Shown here: positions 27,236-33,205 of the stretch, in pieces
Numbering within the stretch: position 1 is the stretch's first letter
How the letters are laid out: the number at the start of each line of letters is the position of its first letter
Assembly: GCA_019352135.1 (NCBI GenBank)
Contig: JABBNX010000005.1
Location: 12,727-59,663 of the forward strand
Direction: 5' to 3'
Length of the DNA stretch: 46,937 nucleotides
Origin: Pseudomonadota bacterium
GTDB taxonomy: Bacteria; Desulfobacterota; Desulfuromonadia; Geobacterales; Pseudopelobacteraceae
The notes under the pieces: model-generated
Database searches by the model: none
What the model was told of the DNA's origin: nothing
Seen by the model: the letters and a program-made list of their open reading frames with translations, nothing else
Position numbers and translations under genes: made by a program

Positions 27236-28765
27236 TTAGAAACTAAAGCGATTTACCATCCTATTCAGCTTTTCAACCTGTCCTTCAAGGTTTTTCGCAG
27301 CAGCTAGCGACTCTGCAGCTCCTACAGTATTTTTATCCGTTACCATACTTATTTGGGAAGCAGTTTTGCTAATCTGCTCAAGTCCTGTTGTCTGTTCATG
27401 AATAATCTCGGAAATATCATCAGCAAATGCACTGATAGCATTTGCTCCATATACTGCGTTTTCTAGTTGTTGGTCAATTTCTCGTGAAAGCTGTACTCCA
27501 TTCCTCGACAGAGTCGCTGCTGATTTAGTTATGGTGCTGGTCTTATTTGCAGCATCAGCAGACCTGGTTGCCAAACTGTGTATTTCGTCGGTCATAATTT
27601 TGAACTCGTTGCCTGCCCCTTCTACATGTGCCGCTTCAATTGCAGCATTTACACCAAGCAGATTTGAGAAGCGGGCAATAGTCATCAGGTTGGAGATTAG
27701 CTCGCTGAATTCTTCGCGTTGATCGTCCCCCATTTTTTTCTCAAATTCTTTCATTGCGCTGGCAGTTTCCATACATTGCTTGGACAATTTACGAATTTCT
27801 TGTGCAACGACACCAAAACCGCCTGCCGATATACGCATTCTGGCCGCTTTTTCTACAGCGCCCCCAGCTAGTGATCCAGTTTCTTTTGCTATTTCATCAA
27901 TTTCGTTAGCGATTGTTGTGGTCTTTTCCGCTGCTTCACTAATATCAGTCATAGAAGCAACCATACGGTTCATTGATTGTTTTGTTTTTGCAATGGCGTC
28001 AGTTGCCTGTTTTGCATTGGTATTAGCTTCCCGCGTTTTGACGGCACTGGCTCCAGCACTTTCAGATAATGTGGCAAGACTTATAGAGGTTTCATTCAAT
28101 TGAACACTTTGCTCTTCGGCTCCTTGTGACACAACAGAACTTATTCTGGTCATCTGTTGACCAACATATGAAATATGTCCAACAGTTTCTGAAACTTGTG
28201 AAATAGCATCGTGCAGTGATCCCGCTGTTGTATTCATAGCCTTTCTGATGGAAGCATGTTCGCCGCGATATTTACCGTTCATCCTGGCTTTTAGGTCATA
28301 TTTAGCCAGTCGATCCAATACGGCACCAGCTTCGGTTATCGGAGCTATAACAGCATCCAGAGTGGTGTTCATCCCACCAATCAGTTCTTTCCAGATGCCT
28401 TCATAATCCCAATCATTGCCTCGAGTTTTTAATTTACCGCCTCTAACACTGTTGATTAGGTGTTCAGTTTCACCATGCATGCCATAGAGAATCGCAAGCA
28501 ATGTATTGATGTTCTGTTTGATGTGGTTATATTCCCCTTTATAGTCGTCAATTACGAACGGGGGAAGTTTACCATGAGCAATCTCATCCAAAGCATTCCC
28601 GGCGAGCCGCATTGGCACAACCATGGCATCAATCATCTCATTTAACATTTGAACCATCTCAGCATCTTTACCCTGTAGAGCTTTACAGTCACCTCTAACA
28701 TCTAGTTGACCTGCAATCATCGCCCCTGATAGTTTTTTTATAATGCTGTGCGCCGTTGCATCCAT
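27236..28765 (-). CDS. Soluble chemoreceptor (MCP) with doubled signalling tip, in the hydrogenase operon
   Basis: 509 residues, no membrane segment or signal peptide, so cytoplasmic. The N-terminal half holds HAMP-like repeats (MVVPMRLAGNALDEIAHGKL near 48-67; VIAPITEAGAVLDRLAKYDL near 139-158). The signalling half contains two tip-like segments. The first, degenerate, is at 289-333 (EIAKETGSLAGGAVEKAAR, then GGFGVVAQEIRKLSKQ); the second is at 358-404 (NLLGVNAAIEAAHVEGAGNE, then DEIHSLATRSADAA). A normal receptor has one. Its start codon overlaps the end of the hydrogenase protease gene, so it is translated with the hydrogenase. It likely receives a signal from a soluble partner and acts through the CheW encoded at the other end of the operon (inference). 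Confidence 0.88.
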   Translation of the reverse strand: MDATAHSIIKKLSGAMIAGQLDVRGDCKALQGKDAEMVQMLNEMIDAMVVPMRLAGNALDEIAHGKLPPFVIDDYKGEYNHIKQNINTLLAILYGMHGETEHLINSVRGGKLKTRGNDWDYEGIWKELIGGMNTTLDAVIAPITEAGAVLDRLAKYDLKARMNGKYRGEHASIRKAMNTTAGSLHDAISQVSETVGHISYVGQQMTRISSVVSQGAEEQSVQLNETSISLATLSESAGASAVKTREANTNAKQATDAIAKTKQSMNRMVASMTDISEAAEKTTTIANEIDEIAKETGSLAGGAVEKAARMRISAGGFGVVAQEIRKLSKQCMETASAMKEFEKKMGDDQREEFSELISNLMTIARFSNLLGVNAAIEAAHVEGAGNEFKIMTDEIHSLATRSADAANKTSTITKSAATLSRNGVQLSREIDQQLENAVYGANAISAFADDISEIIHEQTTGLEQISKTASQISMVTDKNTVGAAESLAAAKNLEGQVEKLNRMVNRFSF

Positions 28766-29232
28766 TAGGTGCCCCCTTGCAATAATAAATCTAGTATTGT
28801 TTTCACCGCTGGGACAATGGCGTCACTAACAGCAGCGGTCATAAACTCTCTTGTTCTATTGAAACATATTCCTTCGATACCAACCAGCGTAATTCGCTTA
28901 GGCATATTTTGGGGATAAAGGGTTGCACCAATCTCAATAGTCTCGCGCAATCCAAGCCCGTGTGCAGAAATATCAGTACTATTGTATGGCAATGAGTCCC
29001 ATGGGACGACATGGATGGTTCCAGCAGGAGCGCCAAGTTGGACTGCATCCACAACAATAAGATCAGTCTCGCCTTCAAGCAGCGGCAGCATATCTATGCC
29101 GCCAACTCCAAGGTATTCCAATCGTGCAGAGCATCCAACAAGCTGCTGATAAATCTCAAACCCAATCGCATCATCAGCTATAAGCTCATTTCCTATACAG
29201 ACGACTATTGTACGAAGATCTGTAAGCTGCAT
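28765..29232 (-). CDS. [NiFe]-hydrogenase maturation endopeptidase
   Basis: 155 residues of the HybD/HycI family. The Ni-recognising residues are present: CIGNELIADDAIG gives Glu16, VVDAVQLGAPAGT gives Asp62, and SAHGLGL gives His91, matching the Glu16/Asp62/His93 set of HybD. It clips the C-terminal extension of the hydrogenase large subunit after nickel insertion. The large subunit in this operon does carry such an extension (23 residues after the final His). Its 5' end overlaps the preceding gene by 28 bp and its 3' end touches the chemoreceptor start. Confidence 0.92.
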   Translation of the reverse strand: MQLTDLRTIVVCIGNELIADDAIGFEIYQQLVGCSARLEYLGVGGIDMLPLLEGETDLIVVDAVQLGAPAGTIHVVPWDSLPYNSTDISAHGLGLRETIEIGATLYPQNMPKRITLVGIEGICFNRTREFMTAAVSDAIVPAVKTILDLLLQGGT

Positions 29233-29660
29233 TCATCACCGGAAGAAACAAGCGTTGATTTAACCGGTCTGCATAATAAACCATTGGTCATGCCATCGAA
29301 ATACGAGTGGAAAAGATGACAGAGAGCACCTCCTGTTTCTATTTTGCGTACTGCGCACATTTCTCTTATGATGCATGTCTTAAACTGCAAACTGTCACCT
29401 TCCAGCGTAAAGTCAAATCCAGCTTGCATCTGTGAACGCAGCACTTCAATAGTTTCTACAAGAGTCGGGTCAGTAAGGTGGACTGGCAGCTTCTCTGCGG
29501 TATCTCTGCCTGCTATCCTGCCAACTGGTGCCGTATTACCCCCCATGATGTTATCAATAGTACTGGCAAACGCATCCAGTAGAAATGCCACCTCGATCTT
29601 GGCTTTCTGGTAATCATCTGAAGTTAGTTCGATAACATACTTGGAATCGGTAGCACTCAT
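29205..29660 (-). CDS. V4R-like small protein in the hydrogenase operon (paralog of the 32276 gene)
   Basis: 151 residues, soluble. The C-terminal part resembles a V4R/4-vinyl-reductase-type small-molecule-binding domain: CIIREMCAV, then GALCHLFHSYFDGM and SSGDECSLQIFV. It aligns with the protein encoded at 32276-32770 (CMIRQSL, GSLCNMMYGFFAGAL, HAGENACFKKLII), so the operon carries two diverged copies. Three cysteine positions are shared (C-I/M-IR, LC, D/N-x-C). V4R domains in other proteins bind ligands or metals; the role here is unknown. Overlaps on both sides show tight coupling with the ferredoxin and protease genes. Confidence 0.7.
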   Translation of the reverse strand: MSATDSKYVIELTSDDYQKAKIEVAFLLDAFASTIDNIMGGNTAPVGRIAGRDTAEKLPVHLTDPTLVETIEVLRSQMQAGFDFTLEGDSLQFKTCIIREMCAVRKIETGGALCHLFHSYFDGMTNGLLCRPVKSTLVSSGDECSLQIFVQ

Positions 29661-29916: not shown

Positions 29917-31332
29917 TTACCTCCGAATGGTTCTAACGGTTTCACCGCCACGAGTAATAGCTATTTCCAATGGCATACGGCCAACGGCGTGTGTTGCACA
30001 CGAAAGGCATGGGTCATAGCAGCGGATACTGAATTCGACTGCATTCAGCAAGGCTGTCTCGTTTGGTTTGTCGATGATGTGAGATTGTGCTGCCTGCTCA
30101 ATCGAGCGATTTATGATGGCGTAGTTCTGTTGAGTCGCCACAATCAGGTTTGCGGCACGAACGATGCCTTTTTCGTCGATCTCGTAGTCATGAATCAGAG
30201 TGCCACGGGGAGCTTCCGAATGACCGACACCACGACCACCTTTGAATTTGACCGGAACTCTGGTCTCACCCCACACCGCAGGATCATTAAGAATATTGTC
30301 GGAACGTTCGATAGCCCAGATCATCTCAACCAGCTTTGCGTAGGTCTGGAACACGGTCAGATGACAGGGATACCCACCCAGCTTGGTAAATTCAGCATAT
30401 TCCGCATCAGCCAATTCAGTGCCAAACTGGCGCATCGCGTTCATTCTTGCCATTGGTCCGACGCGGTATTCATGGAGCTCTCCATCGAAATTGAAATGGA
30501 CTTTCTTCATATACGACCACTCGACTACGCTCTCAACCATGTACTTGTCATAATCTTCAACAGGGAATTCAATCTTGATGTTGCCATCTTTGTCGACGGC
30601 TCGCAGATTCCCTTCTATTAGTGAGACACGGTCGTCCTTTACTGTCCCTACAGCCCACGACGGCGCAATCCAATCGTTCAGCATGGCAGGGTGTTTATCC
30701 AATGCGTTCAGGAGCAATCCTTTAACCGCAGGAGTAACTACTGGTAACATAGCCTTGGCTTCATCCACCAGAGCTTGAATTATTTTCTTCTTCTCCTGGT
30801 CAAGAACAAATGTGATCCCACCGGCTACCGATGTTACCGGATGGGTACCACGCCCCCCAACGATTTCGTTAATTTTCTGACCTATTGTACGAAGACGTAA
30901 AGCTACTTTAGCCAGTTCGGGATTTGCCTGCACAATTCCCACTACATTTCTGATTGCAGGGTCGGCATCAAGTCCGAGTACCAGATCAGGTCCTTGGAGA
31001 ACAAAAATTGAAAGGCTGTGTGAATGAATGATATGCCCCATATACATTAGTTCGCGGAGAAGCATTGTAGCGGGCGGAGATTTAACGCCAGCAGCGTAGT
31101 CCAATGCATTTGACGCGGCAATGTGATGAGCCGTTGGACAGACCCCGCAGATCCGTGCCGTAATGTGTGGCATACGATCAGCTTCCATGCCTATGAGGAT
31201 TTTTTCGAAGCCACGAAGTTCGTTGACAACAAGTCCGGCATTTTCAAGTTTCCCGTCATCGTCAAGGTTGATGAATACCTTGGCATGACCTTCGATTCTT
31301 GTAACAGGATCTATTTTAATGGTCTTGTTCAT
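29917..31332 (-). CDS. [NiFe]-hydrogenase large subunit (group 3-like)
   Basis: 471 residues. The N-terminal nickel motif RICGVCPTAHH supplies Cys62 and Cys65. The C-terminal motif CYDPCLSCATHAVG supplies Cys442 and Cys445, with the last conserved His at 448. After it comes a 23-residue extension that the maturation protease should remove. The CATH-type ending resembles cytosolic group 3 (Mvh/F420-type) enzymes more than membrane uptake hydrogenases, and no Tat or membrane subunit is encoded. Intact ligands and the extension argue for an active enzyme, not a HupUV-type sensor, which lacks the extension. The start overlaps the small-subunit stop (ATGA). Confidence 0.93.
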   Translation of the reverse strand: MNKTIKIDPVTRIEGHAKVFINLDDDGKLENAGLVVNELRGFEKILIGMEADRMPHITARICGVCPTAHHIAASNALDYAAGVKSPPATMLLRELMYMGHIIHSHSLSIFVLQGPDLVLGLDADPAIRNVVGIVQANPELAKVALRLRTIGQKINEIVGGRGTHPVTSVAGGITFVLDQEKKKIIQALVDEAKAMLPVVTPAVKGLLLNALDKHPAMLNDWIAPSWAVGTVKDDRVSLIEGNLRAVDKDGNIKIEFPVEDYDKYMVESVVEWSYMKKVHFNFDGELHEYRVGPMARMNAMRQFGTELADAEYAEFTKLGGYPCHLTVFQTYAKLVEMIWAIERSDNILNDPAVWGETRVPVKFKGGRGVGHSEAPRGTLIHDYEIDEKGIVRAANLIVATQQNYAIINRSIEQAAQSHIIDKPNETALLNAVEFSIRCYDPCLSCATHAVGRMPLEIAITRGGETVRTIRR

Positions 31333-32279
31333 AAGCTCTCTCCTGCTTCGTAGTCCGCATTCTCATCCTCAATCCATTTTTGGATATGGAAAGTTGGCTT
31401 GCCACCAATCATTGAGGTAGCCATAGTGTAGGAATAATGGGATTTGGAGGCTTTCTCCAATGAGTCTATAATGACGTTACGATCAATTTTAGTCAGACGC
31501 GACATTCGGTCGGCAATTTCCGTTCTGATATCCCGGTTCGGTTCAGTGAGTATCTGCATTGTTGCCCCGGCGCAGCCAGTACAGGGGACTCCGTTGGCCG
31601 GGCAAGGGGCCAGGCACCGATCCATGGTTACAGATCCCATGCATGTGTACCCTTGGCTCAAAAAGCACTGTTCATTATTTGGTATTCCTTCGGAATTTGA
31701 TTTGATCGCGTCAACATCTGTTTTTTCCATCTTCCGTTTGCATTTCGCGCAGACCGTTCGCTTGTTAACCTCTGGTGCCCGTCCTTCAACAAGAGATGTT
31801 AAAGCTTCAAAGATGAACGCAGGATGTGGAGGGCAACCTGGCAAATAAAGATCTACGTCAATTACTGCATCAATAGGTTTTACAACCGACTCTAAAGGAG
31901 AGATCTCTTTACTTGGGGGATGCGCAGATATGGTCGTCTTGTTTTCAAGGTATACCGCCTTGCCGATTTCTGCTGGAGTGTGAATATTGCCAGCTCCCGC
32001 CGGACCACCAAATACGGCGCAAGATCCCCAGGCAATCACAATATCGCAAGATTTTCGCATTTCAATTGCGGCATGGCGATCATGCTCATTGCGAATAGCA
32101 CCAGATACCAGGCCTACAGTGGCATGCGGGTAATCCTTTATGTCTGTTAGAACTGGACATCTTTGGATTTTAACGGCTTGCAGGACATTCAGAATTTTTT
32201 CGTGAAGGTCAACAATTGCAATATGGCAACCGGAGCAATCGCTTAGCCATTCCGTATTGATGGTGACTTCATTACTCAT
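31329..32279 (-). CDS. [NiFe]-hydrogenase small subunit (Mvh-like)
   Basis: 316 residues, no twin-arginine signal, so cytoplasmic. The proximal cluster ligands are WLSDCSGCH (Cys15, 18), GSCAVFGG (Cys87) and LPGCPPHP (Cys149). The C-terminal part adds a Cys-rich region: CAKCKRK (177, 180), Cys205, Cys213, Cys222, Cys226 and CTGC (233, 236), enough for further Fe-S clusters. This resembles MvhG/HoxY-type subunits with extra clusters. It pairs with the large subunit and should pass electrons to the operon's ferredoxin. Its start overlaps the preceding V4R-like gene by 4 bp. Confidence 0.92.
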   Translation of the reverse strand: MSNEVTINTEWLSDCSGCHIAIVDLHEKILNVLQAVKIQRCPVLTDIKDYPHATVGLVSGAIRNEHDRHAAIEMRKSCDIVIAWGSCAVFGGPAGAGNIHTPAEIGKAVYLENKTTISAHPPSKEISPLESVVKPIDAVIDVDLYLPGCPPHPAFIFEALTSLVEGRAPEVNKRTVCAKCKRKMEKTDVDAIKSNSEGIPNNEQCFLSQGYTCMGSVTMDRCLAPCPANGVPCTGCAGATMQILTEPNRDIRTEIADRMSRLTKIDRNVIIDSLEKASKSHYSYTMATSMIGGKPTFHIQKWIEDENADYEAGESL

Positions 32280-32770
32280 GGCACCCTCCTGATAATCAGT
32301 TTTTTAAAGCAGGCGTTCTCACCGGCGTGGATAATTTCCAGCGATGACTCTCGGGCCATGATATTTTGCAACGCTCCTGCAAAGAAGCCATACATCATGT
32401 TGCAGAGCGATCCTTTCTGTGTGTGACCAAATCGGAACAATGATTGACGGATCATACAATCCCGGAAAACCAGCATTACTTCGGTTCCTTCATCACTTTC
32501 CTTTATGACTGTGTCCTGATCATGGGTTTTAAACGTCTCGAATAGCCAGAGGTAGTCATTTTGTTCAAGGACGTCTCTGGTCGAATTTAAAGCCTGTTCG
32601 ATATCATCGGTATGCGCGATACCTACTGATAATTTCTTCCCAAGGTTAACTCCCGCAAGATATGAAATACTGTTGGCAGATTCACCTATGGCTTGTTCGG
32701 TTCCAGATGCAATGGCCCCCAGAAACACCATAGCATCTTGCAGTGCGAGTCTTTGCTGACTTGTCTCCAT
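32276..32770 (-). CDS. V4R-like small protein in the hydrogenase operon (first copy)
   Basis: 164 residues, soluble, second gene of the operon, 9 bp after cheW. The C-terminal region follows the V4R pattern: FRDCMIRQSLFRFG, GSLCNMMYGFFAGALQNI, then HAGENACFKKLII. The N-terminal half is helical with a GVNLGKKL segment that aligns with RIAGRDTAEKL in the other copy. It could be a ligand- or redox-sensing adaptor between hydrogenase and chemotaxis proteins, or an accessory factor. No function is established from sequence. Confidence 0.7.
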   Translation of the reverse strand: METSQQRLALQDAMVFLGAIASGTEQAIGESANSISYLAGVNLGKKLSVGIAHTDDIEQALNSTRDVLEQNDYLWLFETFKTHDQDTVIKESDEGTEVMLVFRDCMIRQSLFRFGHTQKGSLCNMMYGFFAGALQNIMARESSLEIIHAGENACFKKLIIRRVP

Positions 32771-32779
32771 TGACCACTC

Positions 32780-33205
32780 CTATACTAAATGTTCAAGATT
32801 TAAAAATATAACCAGCCTTTCATCAATCTGGATAACGCCACCGATCCATGATTGAGCTGTTGTTTCGACCGGTGGAGGTAGGATATCGCTCAGCTTTATG
32901 CGAATGACATCTGAAATCTCGTCGATGATAAACCCGGTCAGTTCACCCTTGAGATCCATCACTGCAATACAGCGGGTACTTTCATCACCAAGGTCAGAAA
33001 AGCCGAAACAGTTGCGTAGGGATATGATGGGAACAATGGAGCCACGAAGATTGATGATCCCTTTAATGTGTGGTGGAGAGTTGGCTGTTTTGGATATATC
33101 AACCATACCGCTTATTTCTCTGACCCGCATTACATCGATGGCATATTCTTGACCGTACAGGAAGAATGTTACTAGTTGGATATCGGCATTCGTTGACAAT
33201 TCCAC
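32780..33205 (-). CDS. cheW: CheW-type chemotaxis coupling protein
   Basis: 141 residues, a single CheW domain: QLVTFFLYGQEYAIDVMRVR, the highly conserved IKGIINLRGSIVPIISLR, then GFIIDEISDVIRI. The start is GTG at 33205, preceded by AAAGGAGG. CheW bridges chemoreceptors and the CheA kinase. It is the first gene of the hydrogenase operon whose last gene is the soluble chemoreceptor, so the pair probably works together. No cheA lies in the window. Confidence 0.95.
   Translation of the reverse strand: MELSTNADIQLVTFFLYGQEYAIDVMRVREISGMVDISKTANSPPHIKGIINLRGSIVPIISLRNCFGFSDLGDESTRCIAVMDLKGELTGFIIDEISDVIRIKLSDILPPPVETTAQSWIGGVIQIDERLVIFLNLEHLV

Follow-up and report, generated by a model that had tools for sequence, protein, structure and literature searches.

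A soluble chemoreceptor with two copies of the hairpin tip, encoded with a [NiFe]-hydrogenase and conserved from Geobacterales to Ignavibacteriae

An open reading frame of 509 codons plus stop (27236–28765) encodes a soluble double-HAMP chemoreceptor in which the hairpin tip occurs twice. It lies in the 46,937-nt window, by which we mean the whole stretch of DNA analyzed here; all window coordinates given below refer to its minus strand. As judged from its alignments, the protein is a 36-heptad-class (36H) chemoreceptor with a tandem duplication of a tip of ~56 residues plus a short connector. Few parts of the bacterial signalling machinery are as strongly conserved as the chemoreceptor tip, and current models place it at the end of the rod, held in the CheA/CheW baseplate. 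A tip that is doubled, and kept so across several lineages, provides a natural test of what a tip must be: it poses the question of whether control of the kinase needs the turn itself or the paired helix faces alone.

The ATG of the receptor gene overlaps the TAA stop codon of a hydrogenase maturation protease gene by one base (TAATG), indicating that the two genes are tightly coupled. Over its whole length the protein matches PF00015 (MCPsignal) with 88.1 bits against a cut-off of 34.6. Two stretches match PF18947 (HAMP_2): a first repeat at residues about 30–90 (28496–28678), whose boundary was taken from orthologs, and a second at residues 121–181 (28223–28405), which is the best PF18947 stretch. 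The protein has no membrane-spanning stretch, as its most hydrophobic 19-residue window averages 1.06, compared with 3.09 in a membrane-spanning relative. The first-pass annotation, made from the letters alone, had described a soluble receptor built on HAMP repeats, and these data agree with that description.

The residue ranges and peptides through which the same annotation had pointed to two tip-like segments are correct: EIAKETGSLAGGAVEKAAR begins at residue 291, GGFGVVAQEIRKLSKQ at 315 and NLLGVNAAIEAAHVEGAGNE at 368. In a genome-wide search, PF00015 matched the receptor frame twice independently, with 44.0 and 52.3 bits (cut-off 34.6). When the frame was scored with a tip matrix derived from 19 canonical tips encoded in the same genome, the two peaks fell at residues 388 (52 bits) and 317 (42 bits), while the third-best position scores −0.9 and two half-windows of shuffled sequence average about −26 and −24 bits. 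In a search of PDB sequences, residues 138–339 and 355–505 align to E. coli Tsr with a gap of at most one residue, and Tsr 363–418 is covered twice. Both the first tip copy (residues 284–339; 27749–27916), identified by PF00015, the Tsr alignment and the tip matrix, and the second copy (residues 355–410; 27536–27703), identified by the Tsr alignment and the matrix, align gaplessly to this same stretch, each with 22 of 56 residues identical to Tsr. The copies lie 71 residues apart, separated by a connector (residues 340–354; 27704–27748). Since only 11 of their 56 aligned residues are identical, the duplication must be old; over the 56 residues compared, the second copy may derive from the receptor itself or from another receptor.

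Lengths were compared with those of the closest single-tip relative, the membrane receptor L146, which shares the HAMP repeats. Optimally aligned, the two proteins are separated by a single gap of 71 residues, the distance from the HAMP motif to the tip phenylalanine is 153 residues in both, and that from the tip phenylalanine to the end of the coil is 119 residues in both. The single gap and the equal spacings show that the protein is a 36-heptad receptor with one tandem tip copy added. Assignment to the 36H class refers to the arms, which fit by the alignment to Tsr and by these spacings, and not to the total length, which at 71 extra residues amounts to about 46 heptads. The tandem duplication implied by the first-pass annotation is upheld by the double coverage of Tsr and by the excess of exactly 71 residues over the single-tip relative. 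Compared with 36H receptors (E. coli Tsr and Tar, and the double-HAMP membrane relatives L146 and L147), the arms on either side of the tip match residue for residue in length and HAMP repeats likewise feed the coil; the doubled-tip receptor differs in its 71 extra residues, the lack of a membrane segment, changed apex residues and a predicted displacement of the turn.

Full-length orthologs with 41–81% identity were found in Geobacter-type MAGs, Geomonas, Trichlorobacter, Geobacter sp. OR-1, a Sandaracinus-labelled MAG and two Ignavibacteriae MAGs. Both copies are present in every full-length ortholog aligned (about 30), so the doubling recurs in homologs from Geobacterales to Ignavibacteriae. 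Distant matches to Sphingobium and other single-tip receptors proved to be ordinary tips, and nothing was found in the viral contigs searched. Among 30 aligned sequences, K306, R311, S313, A314, G316 and F317 are invariant in copy 1, where the canonical apex is replaced by R-M-R-x-S-A-G-G, and G371, N373, A374, E377-E382, G385 and F388 are invariant in copy 2. The invariant residues of both copies differ from those of the canonical apex, and neither copy retains the apex residues corresponding to Tsr G390 and E391. The first copy had been called degenerate; this holds for the contact residues of its N-terminal half, where the canonical identities are lost, but not for the copy as a whole, which maintains invariant residues of its own (the first three listed above). 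Within residues 183–505, a single indel site was detected, immediately after residue 346 in the connector, where orthologs carry 0, 4, 7, 8, 10 or 11 extra residues, mostly not multiples of a heptad; the connector is the sole indel site of the coiled coil. This pattern of conservation indicates, at the level of sequence, that the doubling is ancient and under selection.

Chemoreceptors work as dimers and trimers of dimers. The fold was predicted with AlphaFold2 for monomers of two doubled-tip orthologs, the window receptor and the most distant ortholog (L061, from an Ignavibacteriae MAG, 37% identical in the modelled region), from alignments of modest depth (15 and 27 sequences, respectively). 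The window receptor is predicted to form two helices, residues 169–342 and 347–505, with a break at 343–346. The outgoing arm (residues 183–342; 27740–28219) would be a single continuous helix running through the former first tip, a feature shared by the distant ortholog, and would be followed by a hairpin turn (residues 343–346; 27728–27739) and a return arm (residues 347–505; 27251–27727) running as a single continuous helix through the former second tip. The Ignavibacteriae ortholog is predicted to form helices 2–170 and 177–338 with an equivalent turn. The pLDDT of this model averages 87.8, rising to about 90 at the two former tips and dropping to 64 in the turn. Neither model turns at either tip, where continuous helix is predicted with good confidence, and the single turn in both coincides with the indel-tolerant site between the copies; in the ortholog alignment, this predicted apex is the least conserved part. 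In a Foldseek comparison, the Ignavibacteriae ortholog model superposes end to end on an integrative model of the Bacillus McpB receptor (TM 0.86 by query, 2.3 Å, 334 columns). Across both former tips the hydrophobic heptads stay in phase, the one shift falling at the connector. The phase is also maintained through the turn of canonical tips, which means that a tip can open into a straight helix without disturbing the core register, and also that heptad continuity does not separate a turned from an opened tip. The first-pass annotation had argued that the two copies could not share the tip of a single hairpin, so that either the arms are reorganized or the first copy has taken a new role. The two models agree with a reorganization, predicting one turn between the copies, an arrangement with neither copy at the apex. 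Set against the standard description of an MCP as a single hairpin turning at a conserved tip, the protein has two tip copies and a predicted turn at 343–346 between them, which would make it a variant rather than a standard member of PF00015.

These considerations have led us to propose a model whereby the receptor most likely forms a single hairpin with each arm extended by about 5 heptads (roughly 50 Å). The two original turns would have opened into continuous helix, and the variable connector would serve as the real turn. The N-terminal half of copy 1 would pack on the C-terminal half of copy 2, and the C-terminal half of copy 1 on the N-terminal half of copy 2. Both would be ordinary pairings of the N- and C-helices of a tip with partners exchanged, and the inner (second) pair would be inverted with respect to the HAMP end.

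The residues through which a receptor tip contacts its partners are named here in Tsr numbering, their roles in trimer and CheW contact being those generally assigned in Tsr. Copy 2 keeps N376, I377 (as L), L380 (as V), N381, V384 (as I) and E385, with N376, L/I377, N381 and E385 almost fully kept, and copy 1 likewise keeps the return-helix positions V398, E402 and R404. The equivalent of R388 is kept in copy 1 only and that of E391 in neither copy; with both lost in copy 2 and E391 lost in copy 1, control of CheA could be weak or absent. Strictly complementary decay, in which the C-half of copy 1 and the N-half of copy 2 are kept, was considered and set aside, as it is modest over all near-turn residues: of 14 such positions, those matching the consensus number 5.8 in N1, 7.2 in C1, 9.9 in N2 and 6.3 in C2. 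Complementary loss is clearer at the named contact positions and lends the model weak support. In the predicted fold, the dimer-contact residues of copy 2 and the return-helix residues of copy 1 face each other, so that the residues that elsewhere contact neighboring dimers and CheW would survive mainly in the inner, inverted pair, now in the middle of the stalk. A CheA-type dimerization domain is encoded in nine of nine ortholog genomes tested, and 21 CheW-domain matches were found in the genome of the window. The facing contact residues, together with the presence of CheA, favor an output to CheW/CheA through a mid-stalk interface.

The input is suggested by the genes that precede the receptor. 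The operon is headed by a CheW adaptor gene (32780–33205; PF01584), which is found only in the closer relatives of the window and is missing in more distant orthologs. It is followed by u164 (32276–32770), encoding a small conserved protein with a weak resemblance to V4R; the VhuG-like small subunit of a [NiFe]-hydrogenase (31329–32279; NCBIfam match); the VhuA/MvhA-like large subunit (29917–31332), with its active-site motifs and a cleavable C-terminal tail; u151 (29205–29660), encoding a small conserved protein with four invariant Cys that is distantly related to u164 and weakly like PF14196 (ATC_hydrolase); and a HycI-type hydrogenase maturation protease (28765–29232; PF01750/TIGR00072), syntenic in orthologs. 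The best NCBIfam matches, VhuA at 352 bits and VhuG at 248 bits, are both below the equivalog cut-offs. No MvhD or heterodisulfide reductase partners of group 3c were detected among the Pfam-annotated genes of the cluster, where u164, u151 and the receptor occupy their place. The order u164-VhuG-VhuA-u151-HycI-receptor, six families with the receptor last, was found complete in 27 of the loci retrieved; contig ends truncate it in two more, and in another two the receptor starts the contig. Within the order to which the host belongs, u164 is present in 31 genomes, besides one distant paralogue, and each of the 31 also carries the doubled-tip receptor. Conversely, the receptor occurs in 33 genomes, 31 of which have u164, the two exceptions being incomplete matches. 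The link to the hydrogenase proposed in the first-pass annotation is supported by this gene order, which is conserved across phyla.

Searches of PDB profiles with u164 and u151 returned only designed repeat proteins or nothing. These two uncharacterized proteins, whose genes always flank those of the hydrogenase subunits, are candidates for the connection between enzyme and receptor. In the proposed mechanism, the N-terminal HAMP pair would read the state of the VhuAG-type [NiFe]-hydrogenase, with u164 and/or u151 as probable intermediaries, and the coil would pass this state to CheW/CheA by interface residues in mid-stalk. The duplication, its conservation and the fixed order of the genes are established by the data; the fold is a prediction, and the H2 or redox input and the CheW/CheA output are inferred. 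Taken as a whole, the account of a cytoplasmic 36H receptor with a duplicated tip, predicted to form a long hairpin with a relocated turn, with hydrogenase state as its input and CheW/CheA as its output, is in our judgment probably correct.

Other explanations bear on the duplication and on the fold. The first-pass annotation had itself allowed that the first segment might be the ordinary return helix of a long-class receptor, and an unduplicated receptor of 44 heptads (44H) or more, in which that segment is a normal outgoing or return helix, would agree with a predicted rod of about 44H length that superposes on a 44H receptor. The return-helix explanation is ruled out by the gapless double alignment to Tsr and the 71-residue arithmetic, and in its wider form the long-class reading is made very improbable by these, by the two independent tip matches and by the absence of a canonical tip at the predicted apex. 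The genome is a draft of 275 contigs, as would suit an assembly error, a fusion of two receptor genes or a decaying pseudogene, but about 30 aligned orthologs, drawn from independent assemblies among which are those of cultured isolates (Geomonas, Trichlorobacter and Geobacter sp. OR-1), show the same architecture without interruption, and both tip copies hold invariant residues, leaving an artefact with a negligible probability. A fold shaped like an M deserves more weight. Here each tip would retain its turn, and the two would lie next to each other at equal height with the connector as a base loop. One chain would form a four-helix pseudo-dimer of tips, resembling a single-chain receptor in miniature. 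Each copy does align over both its halves to a complete canonical tip, the indel-tolerant connector fits this fold equally, and single-chain tandem signalling domains exist, both natural and engineered (PMC4692393), one of them in the genome of the window. Both AlphaFold2 models, however, predict continuous helix and no turn at the tips, neither copy retains the turn residues G390 and E391 and, on geometric grounds, HAMP-linked dimers would need to place eight tip helices on a four-helix stalk; we consider the M-shaped fold unlikely.

A further alternative accepts the long hairpin and questions its output. The protein may have left chemotaxis and lost control of CheA to become a scaffold associated with the hydrogenase, its conserved mid-stalk zone binding the enzyme, u164/u151 or another partner. 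The loss of R388 and E391 equivalents described above would be expected of such a protein, as would the absence of CheW from the more distant operons and the finding that the receptor essentially always accompanies a VhuAG-type hydrogenase; a related hydrogenase operon also exists without the receptor, beside a histidine kinase and response regulator in one genome. Against this stand the CheW gene with which the operon begins in the closer relatives as well as in the window, the contact positions almost fully kept in copy 2 and those kept in copy 1, and the CheA encoded in all nine ortholog genomes tested. A scaffold is possible, if rather doubtful, and chemotactic output from the long hairpin is preferred. 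A stronger form of the preferred reading can be put forward tentatively: that the protein represents a new class of receptor with a relocated turn, in which an opened tip is zipped into the stalk and a canonical but inverted interface in the middle of the rod conveys the state of a [NiFe]-hydrogenase to CheW/CheA. If this were true, the class would comprise a cytoplasmic hydrogen receptor showing that a receptor tip need not end the rod.

Similarity to known receptors is partial in each case. The 44H receptors (T. maritima TM1143 and B. subtilis McpB) have a similar rod length and, in the model, a single long hairpin, but they carry one conserved tip at the apex, whereas the doubled-tip receptor would have a variable apex with its tip motifs about 5 heptads below. 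The soluble receptors of T. maritima (3G67/3G6B) and R. sphaeroides (TlpT) are also cytoplasmic and lack a membrane anchor but have a single tip, and we know of no hydrogenase operon associated with them. Hydrogenases of group C2 in the HydDB scheme are [FeFe] enzymes. In the available portion of HydDB, C2 is a putative chemotactic class among the C groups, in which a hydrogenase is likewise genetically linked to a methyl-accepting protein, whereas the window cluster combines a VhuA/VhuG-type [NiFe]-hydrogenase with a protease, u164, u151 and the doubled-tip receptor. No MCP-linked [NiFe] class is listed in that portion, where putative H2-linked chemoreceptors appear for [FeFe] enzymes only; the protein described here is a candidate for a soluble receptor coupled to an enzyme of the [NiFe] type. 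A survey of Geobacter chemotaxis (PMC2577667) makes no mention of a hydrogenase-linked receptor, and no description of a duplication of the tip alone was found in the literature, subscription journals lying mostly beyond the search.

A sister hydrogenase operon, present in two genomes (L179:8957-12957 and L180:5847-9368), comprises a u164-like gene, VhuG, VhuA and a ferredoxin fused to a u151-like domain, without a receptor. In L179 it includes a HycI protease, and a histidine kinase and a REC-DUF4388-Roadblock response regulator are encoded directly upstream, which suggests an alternative signalling output for that operon. In a Trichlorobacter MAG, a fragment of the doubled-tip receptor (L057:10001-11080) begins near residue 36 with no hydrogenase within 10 kb upstream, and may be a rearranged copy or a chimeric contig. 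Apparent frameshifts in u164 (L034:5926-6418) and in CheW (L039:5591-5988) are either assembly errors or real breaks.

Single-chain tandem receptors, of which a natural example is an R. centenum protein (PMC4692393), also contain a pair of tip sequences within one chain. Such proteins join two whole signalling domains, whereas the doubled-tip receptor repeats the tip alone, at a distance of 71 residues, within one pair of full-length arms. The genome of the window encodes a single-chain receptor of this kind on another contig (C123:2388-3743; L111, L115), a soluble protein of 641 residues with two complete signalling domains whose tips are exactly 300 residues apart; the adjoining gene (C123:672-2114; L122, L128) encodes a 539-residue protein of three CheW domains. 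On a third contig (C9:22157-23365; L118, L119), a frame of 654 residues shows two MCP-signal matches, both weak and degenerate, at a distance of about 270 residues.
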